From the IMG/VR virus record IMGVR_UViG_3300028864_000041, positions 1-43,203 of that record: a stretch of 43,203 nt of DNA. One strand, given 5' to 3'. Shown piece by piece: positions 18,134 through 26,034 of the stretch (positions are counted from its first letter, which is position 1; each line of letters begins with the position of its first letter). Both the position numbers and the translations under genes were made by a program. The stretch is from a virus. Below the pieces are notes generated by a model. The model was not told where the DNA came from and ran no database searches. It worked only from the letters and a program-made list of their open reading frames with translations.

Positions 18134-18727
18134 TTACCCCGTGATATAATTTGGTGCTGTAACCGCACCAGTAACTCTTAAAGTTCCGTCAATTATTGTG
18201 TCCCCATTTAATGTAATTAATGGAGAAGTAATTTTTACTCCACTTGCGCCTATGGAAATACGCACATTTCCGTTAAGAGTTTGTATGACAGCGTTGTCCG
18301 TATCTTCTCCAGCTATAGTCCAACCCTTCATCGCGTCAGGAATAAACACGCCATCGCTAAAAGAATACGTGCGTAACGTGTTGGGTTGTGCTTCCTCGAA
18401 TGATTGTAAAAATACACTTATGTCTCTATCGCTTGCTTTTATCCATCCAAGATCGCCAGATTTGAAAGGGAAATTAAAAACAAAACCACCGCCCCCAAAC
18501 TGCATTACTGGGATACTTGCAAGCTGTGATCTACTTGCTACAAACCCGCTGGTTGTTAAATTCTTAATCAATGGCTGAACGGTAGCCCTATTTTTGGCAC
18601 GATCATACGCTACAATACGAGCGGGTAACATTCCATCAACTTGCGATTGAAGTTTTCCAAAAATATATTTTAATATCCCCGAAAAGTTTCCAACGTCCGA
18701 GGGGTCAATGTCTGGGTAGTTTGTCAT
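18134..18727 (-). CDS. Tail spike/baseplate puncturing protein (gpV/gp138-like)
   Basis: The 197-aa protein has an OB-fold region (MLPARIVAYDRAKNRATVQPLI, FGGGGFVFNFPFKSGDLGWIKASDRD). The C-terminal part is repetitive and beta-prism-like (GNVRISIGASGVKITSPLITLNGDTIIDGTLRVTGAV in pieces), as expected of the central membrane-puncturing spike. It lies next to the hub gene. Confidence 0.8.
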   Translation of the reverse strand: MTNYPDIDPSDVGNFSGILKYIFGKLQSQVDGMLPARIVAYDRAKNRATVQPLIKNLTTSGFVASRSQLASIPVMQFGGGGFVFNFPFKSGDLGWIKASDRDISVFLQSFEEAQPNTLRTYSFSDGVFIPDAMKGWTIAGEDTDNAVIQTLNGNVRISIGASGVKITSPLITLNGDTIIDGTLRVTGAVTAPNYITG

Positions 18728-19533
18728 TATAGTTTCCTCATTGCTTCAACAGTATAATAAAAAGGTGTATCACGATTTGATAAGTCAAACGTCAAACGAT
18801 AAACCGTGTAAGTTCCGTTTACTGCTGGGTTTAAAATACTTTGAACGGTAATGGCACAACCTACTTTTATATTGTTATCAAATAAGCATTTAACACGCAC
18901 ACCAAACTCTGTTATTTCAGGTATTCCAATCATTCCCGTAGTTTGGCTTAAAAAAGGAGTTGCACCGCTTAAGGGCTTTCCTTTGTCTTTTATAACTAAT
19001 TTATCATCATCAATGTACACGTTATAATCACCTAGTTTGTTCAGCTCCCCAACTTCTTTAAATGCTGAACCGTTATAGCTATAATTTGCTATTTTTTTAT
19101 CAGTTGATTCATTAACAAGTTTTAGCCCTAGATTACTTGCGGCTTTTGTCACTATAGCACTTACTTGTGTTTCTTCACCTTGCGGGTTAGAAACCATAAC
19201 GCCTTGACTAGAAAAGCCAGTCATGCACTTAATTGTTAATCCAATGTCTGGAGGCTGTGAAATAGTTGAACGAAATACATCGCCAACAAATACAACCGCA
19301 TAGCCAGTTGACTTTCGACCAGCTGACACAATCACTTTTTGATTAACCATTCCTTGCCTAAATGGAGTTGATTCGGTAAGGATAAAATCACGCGTTGCAC
19401 GATCTAAGTTTGTGATCTTAACTGTGGCATCATTTGCAATAGAGTTGTCGTACTTGCTACCACTTACGTCAATCTTTAAGCCCTCGTATTCTTTTGAACC
19501 TACGGAGACTTTTAATAGTCTATCATCAAACAC
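18727..19533 (-). CDS. Baseplate hub protein (gp44/late-control-D-like)
   Basis: In the 268-aa protein the motif SIANDATVKITNLDRATRDFIL and the long beta-domain pattern (VFVGDVFRSTISQPPDIGLTIKC) agree with hub subunits of Mu-like and Pam3-like tails. The hub connects tube and spike. The gene touches the spike gene and overlaps the plug gene by 8 nt. Confidence 0.75.
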   Translation of the reverse strand: MFDDRLLKVSVGSKEYEGLKIDVSGSKYDNSIANDATVKITNLDRATRDFILTESTPFRQGMVNQKVIVSAGRKSTGYAVVFVGDVFRSTISQPPDIGLTIKCMTGFSSQGVMVSNPQGEETQVSAIVTKAASNLGLKLVNESTDKKIANYSYNGSAFKEVGELNKLGDYNVYIDDDKLVIKDKGKPLSGATPFLSQTTGMIGIPEITEFGVRVKCLFDNNIKVGCAITVQSILNPAVNGTYTVYRLTFDLSNRDTPFYYTVEAMRKL

Positions 19534-19840: not shown

Positions 19841-20343
19841 CCGAATACCTTTTTTTTGCCAATCCAGCTGCCTTTTGGGGCTTCTTTGCCTTGTTGTGTT
19901 CCGCTTTTTTTAGTGTCTCCGTTTGTTGCACTTTTTGGATTACTAATACCCCTTGAGCCAACTATAAACACTTCTTTTAAATTAATCATCATTATTAGAG
20001 CATTGTAAACGTTTGCATTTTCTTCGTGAGGGATAGCTTGCAAAACCATGTTTTTATAAGCCCCACTATTTGTCTGAACAATCAAAAACGATGAGTTTGC
20101 ATAGGCTTTTTTAATAGAAGCATACACCGATCTATAATCTGAACTTGATATGATTACTTGAAAACTAATCTCAATAGGCATCAATATTTTATGATCAGTG
20201 ATAATAGAACCGCTTTCAATAGGGTGTTCCATCATTCTCGCGTTTTCTCTAACTCGTGCGCTTGTTATTTTTGCATTTTCAAATAATAACTTAGTACCGT
20301 TGTAAATACCAACGATTGTTATTTTTTGTGAATTATCTGCCAT
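19837..20343 (-). CDS. Dit-like tail/baseplate protein
   Basis: The 168-aa protein has an N-terminal domain with ITSARVRENARMMEHPIESGSIITDHKI and VLQAIPHEENANVYNALIMMINLKEV. This is characteristic of the Dit-like N-terminal domain (tail side of the baseplate). It directly follows the tape measure gene, as in other contractile tails of this type. Confidence 0.75.
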   Translation of the reverse strand: MADNSQKITIVGIYNGTKLLFENAKITSARVRENARMMEHPIESGSIITDHKILMPIEISFQVIISSSDYRSVYASIKKAYANSSFLIVQTNSGAYKNMVLQAIPHEENANVYNALIMMINLKEVFIVGSRGISNPKSATNGDTKKSGTQQGKEAPKGSWIGKKKVFG

Positions 20344-22004
20344 TATTGTATCCCGTCACTAAATTGCATAGCCGCTGTTTGGAGATGATCTTGTAAAGCA
20401 TTGCCAACATGCAAAGCCATTCCTTCTGCATCAGTCGCTTGTGTATGCACTTCAATTTTATCAATTTGAATATTTGAATTAGTATCTCCGCGCATGTTAG
20501 AGATTGCATTGCTACTCATTTGATTAATTGGTGCGCTGTTTGCGTTTGCTATTTGTTCTTTAGCTGGCATAATAACACTTTCTAATCCTAAAATATCTTT
20601 AGGTATTGGCGCTTCTTTGGCTATTTCTTTTTTAGCTTCTTTTGCCACTTCTGTTAAGTTTTCTTTTTTATCTTCTTTTCTGTCGCTATCAACACCTAGA
20701 AATTCCATAGTACCAGCCCATGCACTTTTAGCACCTTTCGTTAACGGGTTGTTTTCAACTTTGTCTTTCATGTCGTCAAAAAACCTAAACAATTCTTTGA
20801 AACGATCTTTCAATCCATCAATAGAAACGCCTATATTATTAAAAAAATTATCAAATGCTTTGCTTGGGGCAAAAAGAGCATCTACTAAAAACCCTAAAAC
20901 AGAGCCGACAACATTTTTAAGAAATGTAAATGCGCTTGCTAAATCTTTTACTGTTTCCCCCACAATAGGATATTTCTCCGATATTTGACCTATTAAGCTA
21001 TCGTTTCCGTCCATAAAGTTGGTTATATCATCATATAGTAAGGCAAACGCCACAGCTACCGCAACCACAGCCGCGCCTACTGCAACAAAAGGTGCTATTA
21101 ATGCCCATAGTGCTGTAGAAGCAGCTATTAATGGAGGAACTAAAAACACCGCTACGGCTGTTCCTATTGCAATAAAAAAGCCTTCTGCAAATTCTTTATT
21201 TTCTCTAAAGAATTGGATAATGCTTTCTATCTTTTCCATAAACCAAGTCATAACTGGGAGTATAGAGGTAGATATTTCTAAGTTTGCTCCACGTAATGCA
21301 AAATTAACTTCGTCCATTGCTTTTTGAAAACTAGCCGAAGCCTTAGCGTTCTCTTTGGTAATCCCGTCCAAGGACTTCATCTTTTCGATTTGCTCTTCAA
21401 CGGCTTTACGACCTTTTTGAAGTAACATAATTGTGCCTTCATCTAGTCCTAGGTTTTTACCATAAGTCATTGCCATAGATTTGTCTTCCATTTTTGCAAA
21501 TTTATCGGCTAATTCAGGAAGTAAATCAATAGCTTTTCGTATGTGTCCATTGGAATTTTGAATATTAATCCCCAAGCGAGCAAAGAACGGCATAGTGGAA
21601 CTAACTCCAGCCATACCTAATTGGTTAAAGTCGTTCGTCATGGATTTAATAGTTCCTTGAAAGCCTTCTGCACTACCGCCATTGATCTTGACAGCTTCAC
21701 CCCACGCACCCATGTCTTTAATGTTAACATCGATAGCGTTGCTCATTTTGCCGAGTTTGTCGCTGAATGAGATAGCCTCGTTAAATTCGCTTATGATTTT
21801 TTGAACAGATAGCCCAGCGACTGCGATAGCTCCTAACTCAATTACCATTTTATTAAATGATTCGGTTAGAACTTTTGATATGCTATCGGTGTCGGATAAA
21901 GTAGCTGTTAAATCTTTGGAGCTTTTATCCGCATCTTTCATTCCTTTATCGAGCTTTGAGGTATCAGCTTCGAACATGATGAAGAATGTGTCTAAAAGTG
22001 CCAT
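20343..22004 (-). CDS. Tail tape measure protein
   Basis: The 553-aa protein has a helical N-terminus with DTSKLDKGMKDADKSSKDL and two strongly hydrophobic stretches (about residues 270-325, FIAIGTAVAVFLVPPLIAAS and onward). Lysine-rich helices follow. Length, hydrophobic core and place between chaperone and baseplate genes identify the ruler that sets tail length and exits during DNA injection. It is short for the class, so the tail should be short. Confidence 0.85.
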   Translation of the reverse strand: MALLDTFFIMFEADTSKLDKGMKDADKSSKDLTATLSDTDSISKVLTESFNKMVIELGAIAVAGLSVQKIISEFNEAISFSDKLGKMSNAIDVNIKDMGAWGEAVKINGGSAEGFQGTIKSMTNDFNQLGMAGVSSTMPFFARLGINIQNSNGHIRKAIDLLPELADKFAKMEDKSMAMTYGKNLGLDEGTIMLLQKGRKAVEEQIEKMKSLDGITKENAKASASFQKAMDEVNFALRGANLEISTSILPVMTWFMEKIESIIQFFRENKEFAEGFFIAIGTAVAVFLVPPLIAASTALWALIAPFVAVGAAVVAVAVAFALLYDDITNFMDGNDSLIGQISEKYPIVGETVKDLASAFTFLKNVVGSVLGFLVDALFAPSKAFDNFFNNIGVSIDGLKDRFKELFRFFDDMKDKVENNPLTKGAKSAWAGTMEFLGVDSDRKEDKKENLTEVAKEAKKEIAKEAPIPKDILGLESVIMPAKEQIANANSAPINQMSSNAISNMRGDTNSNIQIDKIEVHTQATDAEGMALHVGNALQDHLQTAAMQFSDGIQ

Positions 22005-22055
22005 TGGTTTACCTTTTTTGTTTTAATTTTACAACAATATTAAAAAATTGCCAAA

Positions 22056-22799
22056 TTAAAGAAGTTTACCTAAACTATTTGCAAACTCAATAGGGTCTTT
22101 TGAGCTTTTTAACTGATTGCACTTACTACAACTCATTACTAAATTACTTAATGTATGTTTTCCACGTTTAGATAATGGTATATAATGGTCTAAATGTTTT
22201 TTAACATTTTTTAAATTACACCCACACCAATAGCAAACTTTAGTGTTTTGTTGTAATTCCATTAGTTGTGCAGTGGTAACATCTCCTTTTTTTTCTATAG
22301 CTCTACGTTTGTGCCTTGTATTCTTTTTTATCATTTTTCCAATAAACGTATGATTGTATTCTTTTTGTTTTGCGTATAGTGCATCATAATTTTTTTGATG
22401 ATATTTTTTATGAGCAAGAGATATTTTCTCTTTATTCAGTTGGTAATATTCTTTTCTTCGCAGAGATATTTTTTCTTTATTGTTTTTGTCGTATTCTTTT
22501 TTTTGTAAAGATATTTTTTCTTTGTTTTGTTCATAATATTTTTTTTGTTTTAATGATAGTTTTTCTATATTTTTGTTTCTATATTTTTTATCTCTAATCG
22601 CTATTATTTCTTTATTATTTTTCCTATATTCACTATTGGCAATTTGTAGCATTTCTTTATTTTCTAATTGCCATATTTTACAGCAATCTTTGCACCATGC
22701 GACAACCCCATGTTTTCCTAATTTTGCTTTATGAAAAAAAGATATTTCTTTTTCTTCCCCACATTTTGTGCATATTTTTGTTTGTATTATTTTGTTCAT
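22056..22799 (-). CDS. HNH homing endonuclease with charged repeats
   Basis: The 247-aa protein starts with a zinc ribbon (CTKCGEEKEISFF...CKDCCK). About six repeats of 16-17 residues follow, built around NKEKISL(R/Q)KKEYY. It ends with a classical HNH module: CYWCG, HLDHYIPLSKRGKHTLSNLVMSC and SKCNQLK. H-DH and N are the expected catalytic positions. It lies between the tail chaperone and tape measure genes and is probably an inserted mobile gene. A hairpin directly upstream covers its ribosome-binding site. Confidence 0.88.
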   Translation of the reverse strand: MNKIIQTKICTKCGEEKEISFFHKAKLGKHGVVAWCKDCCKIWQLENKEMLQIANSEYRKNNKEIIAIRDKKYRNKNIEKLSLKQKKYYEQNKEKISLQKKEYDKNNKEKISLRRKEYYQLNKEKISLAHKKYHQKNYDALYAKQKEYNHTFIGKMIKKNTRHKRRAIEKKGDVTTAQLMELQQNTKVCYWCGCNLKNVKKHLDHYIPLSKRGKHTLSNLVMSCSKCNQLKSSKDPIEFANSLGKLL

Positions 22800-22808
22800 A
22801 TTGAGCTT

Positions 22809-22849
22809 CCTAGGGCTAAAATTTTAAAAAGATGATTAGAAGCCCTAGG
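22809..22849 (-). promoter_or_regulatory. RBS-sequestering hairpin before the HNH gene
   Basis: On the leftward strand, CCTAGGGCT (22849-22841) pairs perfectly with AGCCCTAGG (22817-22809). The second arm contains the AGGA-type ribosome-binding site, 8-9 nt before the start codon at 22799. Folding would block translation from long late transcripts. Confidence 0.65.
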
Positions 22850-22911
22850 ATAGACCCAATCACCTATTTAAACTTTTGTATTATTATAATACAAAAAGGT
22901 CAAAAAGAAAA

Positions 22912-23456
22912 TTAATTCTTTCTTTTTGACCTTTGAATAGCTTTATACTCATTATATTTTGTTATTGCGGTAATCTCCCACATTAAAAAAGCATCTTCTA
23001 ACGTGTAAATGGTTCTTAACTCGTTTAGCGTCGCTTGTTTGGCTTCGATAATGCTTCCAATAAACGGGTCAATATTGATTGTGCTACGGACGGGATTTTC
23101 TCCATTAATCGAGTTAAGGAACTGGAGACTATCCCGTTTTGAAAAAAACTGAAATTGTACTCAATGATCTCTTTCATTAATTTAATTGCTGTTTCAGCGT
23201 CGTTAGTGTGATTGTCGATAAGTGCTTTAGTACTTAAGACAATTTCACCTAGTTCTGTTTTGACTGCGATAAATTTAAAAATGTCATCTCGTACCGCTTT
23301 GAGAGTTTCAAAATCTCCGATCTTTGGCATTGCGCTCATTGGCAGTTTAACTAATATTTCCATACCGTCCGTTGCAGGAAAACGAGAGATTAAAAATAAT
23401 CTTTCTACCCCGTCAAGGTCGATTATTGTAATTTCTTTTGGTTTAAGGAGTGCCAT
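22912..23456 (-). CDS. Tail assembly chaperone, -1 frameshift fusion product (about 181 aa)
   Basis: From ATG 23456 translation follows the short chaperone for 105 residues to FSFF. At the T TTT TTT heptamer (23148-23142) it slips back by one base and continues SKRDSLQFLNSINGENPV and on to TAA at 22914-22912, with 76 extra residues. The extension contains LNELRTIYTLEDAFLMWEI, typical of the second tail chaperone half. That frame has a TGA just upstream of the slip site and no start codon, so it is reachable only by frameshifting or if the T-run is mis-sequenced. This is the G/GT arrangement known from phages such as lambda. Confidence 0.75.
23025..23456 (-). CDS. Tail assembly chaperone, short product (143 aa)
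   Basis: ATG 23456 overlaps the stop of the upstream gene (TAATG), and GAGGAACAAG lies in front. An in-frame start at 23492 would only extend into that gene. Segments such as LISRFPATDGMEILVKLP, MPKIGDF, STKALIDNH and LMKEIIEYNFSFFQNG match chaperones between tube and tape measure genes of contractile tails. The protein would coat the tape measure during tail assembly. Confidence 0.75.
   Translation of the reverse strand: MALLKPKEITIIDLDGVERLFLISRFPATDGMEILVKLPMSAMPKIGDFETLKAVRDDIFKFIAVKTELGEIVLSTKALIDNHTNDAETAIKLMKEIIEYNFSFFQNGIVSSSLTRLMEKIPSVAQSILTRLLEALSKPNKRR
23091..23148 (-). promoter_or_regulatory. Programmed -1 ribosomal frameshift signal
   Basis: Three parts lie in the canonical order on the leftward strand. 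T TTT TTT (23148-23142) is in zero frame after AG. A 5-nt spacer CAAAA follows. The stem-loop consists of CGGGAT (23136-23131) with ATCCCG (23096-23091) and CTCCA (23127-23123) with TGGAG (23104-23100), separated by a symmetric 3-nt internal loop and closed by an 18-nt loop. Confidence 0.85.
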
Positions 23457-23809
23457 TATTCTTGTTCCTCTTCTCTTGACCACCAAAGGCAACGCTCTCC
23501 TATCTTATTATTAACAAGAATTGAAACGATGTTATTTTCTGGTGATAAAGAACCATCGCCATTTAATGCTTGTAAGTCTTCATTAAAAAGAGATAGGCTT
23601 ACCATTACATTGCCATCATAAAGAATATAATCTTTAAAGAATAGATCGTAATTTTCTTCTTTAATCATAGGATAATTTTTAAAAAAAGGGTCTTCTCCTT
23701 CCGCGCTTTCAAACCAATTACCATAAAGAGAATCTTTAATTACCGTGCCTAATCCATAAAGAGAATTGTTATTAATTAACATTCCTGTTTTTAAGTCACT
23801 TTTTTGCAT
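23456..23809 (-). CDS. Hypothetical protein (117 aa) between tube and chaperone genes
   Basis: The start MQKSDLKTGMLINNNSLYGLG resembles small phage proteins with KSDLKTGM starts, often encoded as accessory ORFs. The product is acidic and aromatic-rich. Its stop overlaps the chaperone start, so it belongs to the late operon. The function is unknown. Confidence 0.6.
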   Translation of the reverse strand: MQKSDLKTGMLINNNSLYGLGTVIKDSLYGNWFESAEGEDPFFKNYPMIKEENYDLFFKDYILYDGNVMVSLSLFNEDLQALNGDGSLSPENNIVSILVNNKIGERCLWWSREEEQE

Positions 23810-23836: not shown

Positions 23837-24277
23837 CTAAAATCTATTTTCAAAAACAAAACCGTATGTTTTAGTTTTTAAACGTCCGCTACTTCCAACT
23901 CCAGTACCTACTGGTGCGCTTACCATAATACCGTTAGAGTAAACTTCGATTGAACCGTCAGGAAAAATCTTAGTCAATGTGATTTCGTCTTGAACTGGAA
24001 ATTTTCCTTTTCCTACTCTGTTATTGTCGGCAATAATGCTAAGATTAACATCATCATCACTTCCAGTAATAACCGAAATGCTAAGCTTTAGAGGCTCAGC
24101 TTTTTGCCATGTGATAAGATCACCGTTCAATCCCATAGTCGCATCACCGATATTGACTGGTTCGCTTGTTACTGGGTCTGCATCGTCCGCAAATTGCGTG
24201 ATCACAAAACCACTAGGAAAAGTATAAGAAGCCGCCAAACTCATAATAAAACCGTATCCGCTTACATTGTTAGCCAT
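23837..24277 (-). CDS. Tail tube protein, DUF3277 family
   Basis: The 146-aa protein contains LKLSISVITGSDDDVNLSI, NNRVGKGKFPVQDEITLTKIFPDG and SGRLKTKTYGFVFEN, which are the DUF3277 signature. It forms the inner tube of the contractile tail. It follows the sheath gene, as expected. Confidence 0.85.
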   Translation of the reverse strand: MANNVSGYGFIMSLAASYTFPSGFVITQFADDADPVTSEPVNIGDATMGLNGDLITWQKAEPLKLSISVITGSDDDVNLSIIADNNRVGKGKFPVQDEITLTKIFPDGSIEVYSNGIMVSAPVGTGVGSSGRLKTKTYGFVFENRF

Positions 24278-24288
24278 TTTTTAGCTCC

Positions 24289-25440
24289 TTAAATTAATAC
24301 GTGTGAACCGCTGATTGAGCGTACACAGTCGTCTTTTGAATAAATAATCGTATAAACCGCTTTATATTCAGTCGCACCGCTTGCGCCAGTATAACTCTGA
24401 ATTGAAACGGTGACCCAATAACCAATAGATTGAACTTTCTGCCAAGCGTTGTTATCTCCGCTTTGGTTGGTAACGTAAAGAATTTGTGTATCCGTTAAAG
24501 TTTTACCGACTGAAATAGTGCCGTTATTGACAGCAAGATTAATAGCACCTTGCAACACAGTCATAATTTGTGCTTTTCCTCTTGTATTTGCTGATACTTT
24601 AGGAAGTGCAAGCAATAATTGCATAAGCTTAGAGGTAAGCGCATCTTTAAACCACATCTCATTCGCGTACACGTTCATTGCGATCGGTGCAGTAGAGCCA
24701 CCCATTAGGTCTCCACGTTGGAAAAACGCTAAGTATTGCCCAGCAGTTTGAGTTTGTCCTAGGTAATTAATTCTTTCTGTATCGTATGTATTTGACAATG
24801 TCGTAGTCGTGACCGTAGGGGTTAGGCTATCAAATTGTTGAAACATATAATTTTGAGTACCATTGACTGCATTGTAATCGGTAGCCGCTAAAACAACAGA
24901 AGGCATAAGTTCTGGGTATTGGTGCGTTGCGCCAGCAGTCAAGATAAGCGCAGTTCCAGCAAAACCGATTAGTGCTGTGCTCCATGCCGAAGCGTTTGCC
25001 GCTGTTACAGATTGACAGAACATAAACATTACATTTTGAGCCGCGTTCCATGTTGCGATCTCTTCGACTTGTGTTAATGTCAATGCTAGACTATCAATAA
25101 ACGCAAAAGAACCAAAGTTGTTGCTAAGTTGAGCTGATTTGGTTAAACAGTCTGTTAACGTTTCGCTACCTGCATGATCCCACGCAAAGAAACTAATTTT
25201 TTGAGGTGTTTGAATTGATTTGCTAACAAACCCAAAATATTGTAAAGCTCTATAGTATTCTTCTGAAGTAGTAGTGAAATATGTTCCAACGTCTTCGAGT
25301 GTTGTGAATTCTACTAAAGTATCTACGGGTAAAGTTGCGTTTGTTGTAAACATTCTCAAACCTAGAGAACGCTGTGCAACAGAAGCACCACCACCGACAC
25401 CGCTAGTAATGTCAACGTATTTTTTGATATTAATTGCCAT
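24289..25440 (-). CDS. Tail sheath protein, DUF3383 family
   Basis: The 383-aa protein has an N-terminal KKYVDITSGVGGGASVAQRSLG region, EFTTLEDVGTYF with TTSEEYYRALQYFGF, and a C-terminal QSYTGASGATEYKAVYTIIY with KDDCVRSISGSHVLI. This is the DUF3383 sheath pattern and the key evidence for a contractile (myovirus) tail. A region of about 57 bp without genes separates it from the terminator gene upstream. Confidence 0.88.
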   Translation of the reverse strand: MAINIKKYVDITSGVGGGASVAQRSLGLRMFTTNATLPVDTLVEFTTLEDVGTYFTTTSEEYYRALQYFGFVSKSIQTPQKISFFAWDHAGSETLTDCLTKSAQLSNNFGSFAFIDSLALTLTQVEEIATWNAAQNVMFMFCQSVTAANASAWSTALIGFAGTALILTAGATHQYPELMPSVVLAATDYNAVNGTQNYMFQQFDSLTPTVTTTTLSNTYDTERINYLGQTQTAGQYLAFFQRGDLMGGSTAPIAMNVYANEMWFKDALTSKLMQLLLALPKVSANTRGKAQIMTVLQGAINLAVNNGTISVGKTLTDTQILYVTNQSGDNNAWQKVQSIGYWVTVSIQSYTGASGATEYKAVYTIIYSKDDCVRSISGSHVLI

Positions 25441-25497: not shown

Positions 25498-26034
25498 TTA
25501 AACACGCTTTAAACCCACTTCAAAATCACTAAAGATTTTACCCTTAATGGTAATTACTCGATCATAAACTAGCGTAAAGTCAAAAGATGGACTAGCCTCG
25601 TATTGCCCTTTATCATCTTCAAAATAAGGATTACGAACATTTGTTACTCTTAGCATGCCTATGCCGTGATTTGTAAGTATTTCGATACTATAAGTTGAAC
25701 ATAAAATTTGTTGTACAATATTTGCCAAGTCACTTGCGGTAATGCTTTCGGCTGAGGCGTTTTGCTTTACCAATGCACCAATTTGCCATGTACTCTCCAC
25801 ACGTTGATAATCTATGTCATCAGTTGTACCAGTTAATGCGTTATAAACGCTTGTACGCTTTGGAGTTCCTATAATTTTATCAGGTAATATTTTGCCAAAG
25901 AATACAGTTTTACCATTAGGCACACCTTGCTTGCTAGGTTGGTATGAACTAATTACCTCAGCGGTTATAAGCTGGTCTGCTAAACCATTGTCAATAATGG
26001 GCATAAATATTTTAATTAAGTCATTATCAGTCAA
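25498..26034 (-). CDS. Neck/tail terminator protein
   Basis: The 178-aa protein has GKTVFFGKILPDKIIGTPKR and YQRVESTWQIGALVKQN, as well as SPSFDFTLVYDRVI. It matches gp12-like neck terminators located directly before the sheath gene. It would cap the tail tube and join it to the head. It overlaps the collar gene by 8 nt. Confidence 0.72.
   Translation of the reverse strand: MTDNDLIKIFMPIIDNGLADQLITAEVISSYQPSKQGVPNGKTVFFGKILPDKIIGTPKRTSVYNALTGTTDDIDYQRVESTWQIGALVKQNASAESITASDLANIVQQILCSTYSIEILTNHGIGMLRVTNVRNPYFEDDKGQYEASPSFDFTLVYDRVITIKGKIFSDFEVGLKRV

Follow-up and report, generated by a model that had tools for sequence, protein, structure and literature searches.

A probable programmed -1 frameshift in the tail assembly chaperone gene of a small contractile-tailed phage and its relatives

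The tail assembly chaperone gene of a small contractile-tailed phage very probably gives rise to two proteins, the short TAC-N and a minority of the longer TAC-NC, by programmed -1 ribosomal frameshifting at the heptamer T_TTT_TTT, in the manner of the lambda G/GT genes. According to the model proposed here, the majority of ribosomes would translate TAC-N up to its stop at 23025 (143 aa), while some of them, stalled by a hairpin that begins 5 nt downstream of the heptamer, would slip back one base, after which Phe-Phe would re-pair perfectly and reading would continue to 22912 to yield a TAC-NC of 181 aa. If the parallel with lambda gpG/gpGT holds, coating of the tape measure protein would fall to TAC-N and recruitment of tail tube subunits to the rarer TAC-NC. 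From the sequences and from this likeness we infer the occurrence of the slippage, its rate, the boost provided by the hairpin and how the two products share the work of tail assembly. A missed second product is identified in this way in a large and mostly uncultured group of contractile-tailed phages.

The chaperone locus and its recoding signal

The window, as the whole stretch of DNA analysed is called here, is a virus record of 43,203 bases with a GC content of 35%, and its genes are ordered as in a small contractile-tailed phage (Table 1). The chaperone gene sits between the tail tube and tape measure genes, as in the lambda G/GT type, and this position, together with matches of TAC-N to the PHROG families phrog_20369 (E 2.1e-9) and phrog_1613 (E 4.2e-6), backs its first-pass annotation as a tail assembly chaperone gene; the Pfam family Phage_TAC_15 was found just under its cut-off. 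The AlphaFold model of TAC-N (pLDDT 82) has as its top fold match in the PDB the HK97 tail assembly chaperone 2ob9, a weak match (E 0.085, TM 0.39-0.48), and PDB sequence searches with TAC-N, either as a single sequence or as a profile, returned no meaningful match. A fold search with the model of the C-terminal domain found nothing, and the locus had no match in phage records at the DNA level.

Table 1. Features of the chaperone locus and its surroundings, with the uninterrupted homologues found in other phages
Feature	Coordinates	Strand	Basis or remark
Hub gene	18727-19533	minus	gene order
Tape measure gene, 3' of the chaperone gene	20343..22004	minus	phrog_34923, E 1.6e-65
-1 frame ORF; the part after the putative slip is the 76-residue C-terminal domain of TAC-NC	22912..23160	minus	sequence
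TAC-N, zero-frame tail assembly chaperone, 143 aa	23025..23456	minus	phrog_20369, phrog_1613
Two-tier hairpin (predicted)	23091..23136	minus	MFE -18.2 kcal/mol; z -3.7
5-nt spacer CAAAA	23137..23141	minus	sequence and fold
Slippery heptamer T_TTT_TTT, zero frame	23142..23148	minus	sequence; 115 of 120 distinct loci have an in-frame heptamer
Tail tube gene, 5' of the chaperone gene	23837..24277	minus	E217_Gp32 family, E 5.9e-53; Pa193 gp33 tail tube 9b42, E 9.4e-34
Sheath gene	24289-25440	minus	gene order
Uninterrupted homologues of the fusion or of its C-terminal part	L106:1177-1698, L105:2755-3201, L203:8095-8628		PB1/E217-type and related phages; phrog_4774; after the hub gene

Close to its 3' end, the chaperone gene has the zero-frame sequence ..AAT TTC AGT TTT TTT CAA AAC GGG.. 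on the minus strand. The heptamer, the 5-nt spacer and the nested stem with a symmetric internal loop are all present in sequence and predicted fold as first described. The outer stem pairs CGGGAT (23136-23131) with ATCCCG (23096-23091) and the inner stem pairs TCTCCA (23128-23123) with TGGAGA (23104-23099), these two tiers of 6 bp flanking a 2x2 internal loop. The predicted fold, computed on 52 nt, is more stable than those of all 200 shuffled versions, and inclusion of the heptamer gives -20.0 kcal/mol with a z of -3.6. Folds as good were found in 20 of 8,631 sampled 52-nt stretches of the minus strand, which places this one among the best 0.25%. The hairpin is identical in L003, a related contig in which the surrounding DNA is 92% identical. 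With regard to other signals, nothing convincing in the way of a Shine-Dalgarno-like stimulator was seen 10-14 nt upstream of the heptamer, where the check was made by eye only, and an Rfam scan of the window matched no family and called no known recoding element or intron.

A heptamer by itself is not evidence of frameshifting, since this AT-rich phage contains five in-frame copies of TTTTTTT in 23 kb of minus-strand genes. Among the five, only the copy in the chaperone gene has a stable hairpin after it and a long -1 ORF that extends beyond the zero-frame stop; at the other four, the -1 frame remains open for 2-9 codons and the MFE lies between -4.0 and -8.6.

The -1 frame begins after a TGA at 23163-23161 and runs through 82 open codons, 76 of them after the putative slip, to a stop ending at 22912, about 110 nt beyond the zero-frame stop. 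Both the TGA shortly upstream of the heptamer and the 76 open codons had been reported in the first-pass annotation and are confirmed, while its further statement that this frame lacks any start codon stands for ATG, GTG and TTG before codon 60 of the 82 and has to be amended for a single late ATG at 22983, at codon 60. Joining of the frames at the heptamer produces the 181-aa TAC-NC, made up of 105 residues of TAC-N and the 76-residue C-terminal domain. This fusion matches phrog_20369 end to end with 57.8 bits, compared with 38.7 and 24.6 bits for its parts alone. In the pairs examined, the region coded only by the -1 ORF shows amino-acid changes less often than silent changes (for instance, pN 0.136 and pS 0.75 with L003), and this part is, judging from these substitutions, under purifying selection. 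Protein conservation starts at the heptamer, where the residues F1 and F2 are invariant. No further copy of the C-terminal domain was found in the rest of the window at E values up to 10.

Several features of the surroundings deserve description in their own right. The interval from the -1 ORF stop to the tape measure gene (22010-22910) contains an HNH endonuclease gene (22056-22799, minus strand) that has a leader of its own. This gene is missing from L003, L004, L012 and other relatives, in which the start of the tape measure gene is at most about 10 nt away from the -1 ORF, and it is a recent mobile insertion adjoining the chaperone gene. Over the last codons and the stop of the -1 ORF there is a perfect, AT-rich 16-bp hairpin followed by T residues (22895-22935, minus strand; z -6.4), which looks like a terminator brought in with the HNH unit and makes one ask how transcription then reaches the tape measure gene. 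On the other side, the tube gene is followed by an ORF of 117 aa without a family match (23456-23809, minus strand), which overlaps the start of the chaperone gene and is absent in L003 and L004, where the chaperone gene comes directly after the tube gene. The sheath protein has 383 aa, compared with 504 in E217 and Pa193 and about 500 in most relatives, and its alignment skips roughly 115 residues, which points to an internal domain missing in the window phage, L003 and L004. Additionally, L002 and L003, which come from different metagenomes and differ in identity, both end at window position 25542, between the sheath gene and the next gene upstream, possibly as a result of a shared assembly break.

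Conservation of the frame relation and the signal in relatives

Viral contigs, phage records and bacterial genomes were scanned for loci with profiles of both parts of the fusion. The second domain lies in the -1 frame in each of the 71 distinct loci of the first set and, once later loci are included, in 120 of 120. An in-frame heptamer is present within the overlap in 115 of these 120 loci, as TTTTTTT (57), TTTTTTC (51), TTTTTTG (4), TTTTTTA (2) or AAAAAAG (1), so that in one relative the T heptamer is replaced by A_AAA_AAG. Among the 50 loci fetched after the pattern was known, TTTTTTN was found in 49. The five loci without a canonical heptamer still have the -1 ORF: two of them, Erwinia RF1 and Yersinia P744, have no T run, with A_AAG in almost the same position, and in Shewanella phage 1/41 the run of six T residues is out of phase (CTT TTT TCA). 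Beyond the profile set, the same layout occurs in Pseudomonas phage Orisa03 with GGT TTT TTA, and in Acetobacter phiAO1 the second domain is likewise in the -1 phase. Relatives with two genes and no signal, which the first-pass annotation had held to speak against its reading, do not occur among the close relatives; separate uninterrupted genes are found only in distant phages of the PB1/E217 type, with genomes of 65-68 kb.

The hairpin appears to be a family feature of variable form. Of 47 non-redundant loci, 31 have a predicted stem of at least 5 bp that starts 5-9 nt past the heptamer; shuffled sequences give 8.4 on average and neighbouring segments 4-9, and in a larger set the count was 68 of 99, against about 17 for shuffled sequences. 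Furthermore, the mean folding energy across loci dips exactly at the position of the stem. About a third of the relatives have no such stem in their minimum-energy fold. The 5' arm (GGG..) is constant and its 3' partner differs between lineages: in the commonest register it pairs with positions +34 to +39, counted from zero after the heptamer, and the partner lies at +44 to +49, 10 nt further on, in the window and its close relatives. A single helix common to the whole family was considered and rejected, given these two positions of the 3' arm and the other registers seen elsewhere. In the commoner register, at least five of the six pairs are Watson-Crick in 13 of 47 loci, against 3.6 when the arms are exchanged between loci, a control in which relatedness remains. 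With regard to the stem of the window type, the helix described above is paired in 75.8% of cells across seven loci, compared with 34-56% for slid versions, and three pairs have changed on both sides, which suggests modest covariation in these seven sequences. The exact stem, to which the first-pass annotation had lent a wider generality, therefore varies across the family in the position of its 3' arm, while the enrichment of a stem at the same spacing is retained. On this comparative evidence, the putative stimulator is real as a feature of the family, with a form that is turning over.

Alternative readings and the uninterrupted homologues

An error of sequencing or assembly, in which the true run would have six or eight T residues and the locus would be one gene, or a downstream frame that is a decayed remnant, would account for the two overlapping frames, and some technologies are prone to errors in homopolymer runs. 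The T7 run is nevertheless kept exactly in two other contigs, one 99.9% identical over 7.5 kb and the other 81-92% identical, and many relatives that share the frame relation have TTTTTTC; the count of seven, singled out for checking in the first-pass annotation, thus holds, a sequencing slip is excluded, and the shift does not depend on the homopolymer count. With the purifying selection on the -1 ORF and an in-frame fusion in none of the 120 loci, the probability left to such an error or to decay is negligible. Slippage of the RNA polymerase, which would add or drop a U on the T7 run so that part of the mRNA encodes the fusion directly, could in principle be allowed to some extent by seven T residues. 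It is unlikely because the site is nearly always in the zero-frame phase and six T residues suffice: in many relatives the run stops at six T residues before a C, G or A, one has A6G, and the X_XXY_YYZ phase found in 115 of 120 loci is required by ribosomal and not by polymerase slippage. The predicted hairpin at the ribosomal spacing also argues against it, and we consider this route very improbable, if slightly less so than an error.

A further reading, in which the downstream ORF is translated separately as a small protein through re-initiation or coupling, draws some plausibility from the fact that in distant phages the C-terminal domain has a gene context unlike that of TAC-N. The scarcity of starts in the -1 ORF (no ATG, GTG or TTG before codon 60) and the onset of protein conservation at the heptamer, with its invariant F1 and F2, stand against it. 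The distant homologues themselves weigh in the same direction, as they carry in a single ORF residues from both sides of the junction; since they span it, the conserved unit appears to be the fusion, and separate translation seems scarcely conceivable.

In the 65-68 kb phages of the PB1/E217 type, the chaperone gene (E217 gp39, Pluto_00050) abuts the tape measure gene without a usable -1 extension, and the C-terminal domain belongs to a single unbroken gene located three genes further along (E217 gp42, Pluto_00020; phrog_4774, more than 350 phage records). A profile built from two sequences of this protein aligns with the fusion nearly end to end and across the junction (hhalign probability 99.3, E 6.7e-21). 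The continuous homologue supports the junction of the proposed TAC-NC and suggests a split-gene alternative to frameshifting. We lean slightly towards the view that in these phages frameshifting has been replaced by two genes, gp39 being a lone TAC-N and gp42 taking the role of TAC-NC. The tail and baseplate proteins modelled in the Pa193 virion are gp32-35, 37-39, 41, 42 and 44-47 (PMC11042391). The numberings of Pa193 and E217 were matched through the lengths of the hub (287 aa), tape measure (858 aa) and tip (221 aa) proteins; Pa193 gp40 and gp43 then correspond to E217 gp39 and gp42, and both are absent from the modelled virion, as is the low-complexity protein gp36. Such an absence is what non-virion chaperones would show, and the support is indirect. 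No solved chains matching Pluto_00020 were found. If the split-gene reading is true, one homologous chaperone system exists in frameshifted and split forms, and tail assembly could be tested with and without frameshifting. The unbroken homologue also offers a way to ask why phages keep frameshifting, as two genes may supply both proteins.

Comparison with known systems

Frameshifting of the -1 type is widely conserved in the tail chaperone genes of long-tailed phages (PMC5009743), and the lambda G/GT type reported here is already known in kind and annotated for one relative, Shewanella phage 1/41. In lambda, the N part attaches to the tape measure protein and the C part to the tube protein (PMC5009743). 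The window gene shares with lambda gpG/gpGT its place before the tape measure gene, the -1 shift close to where the N product ends and a short major and a long minor product (PMC5009743), the minor share being proposed here by analogy; it differs in the slippery site and in the tail type, which is contractile in the window phage. P2, with its E/E' genes, is likewise a contractile-tailed phage with a -1 shift in the tail chaperone gene, and its frameshift efficiency is 2-3 fold above that of lambda according to a review (PMC5009743). The gene neighbourhood in the window is E217/PB1-like and not P2-like.

Shewanella phage 1/41 (NC_025458.1) is closer, with a homologous TAC-N and C-terminal domain in the -1 relation and a joined CDS in the public record, and it differs in having its T6 run out of phase with a canonical heptamer. 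Among the nine isolate records examined with the overlapping pair, it is the only one with a joined CDS; the other eight (Bordetella IFTN2, KLEP17-4, Stenotrophomonas B2, Erwinia RF1, Yersinia P744, Lbo240-yong2, Vibrio PGA and V039C) annotate the short product only, in agreement with the first-pass remark that the second product is invisible to gene callers. In the Vandenendeviridae and Andersonviridae, other families with contractile tails, the sections of the source cited here report TAC-N and TAC-NC, a poly-T motif GTTTTT and a -1 frame that is always open, and a frameshift has been proposed there for these families with their poly-T motifs (PMC12846349); those sections describe no stem. 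The group to which the window phage belongs, with its nearly fixed heptamer, a 5' arm that is kept and a 3' partner that switches, is thus a good natural data set for frameshift signals.
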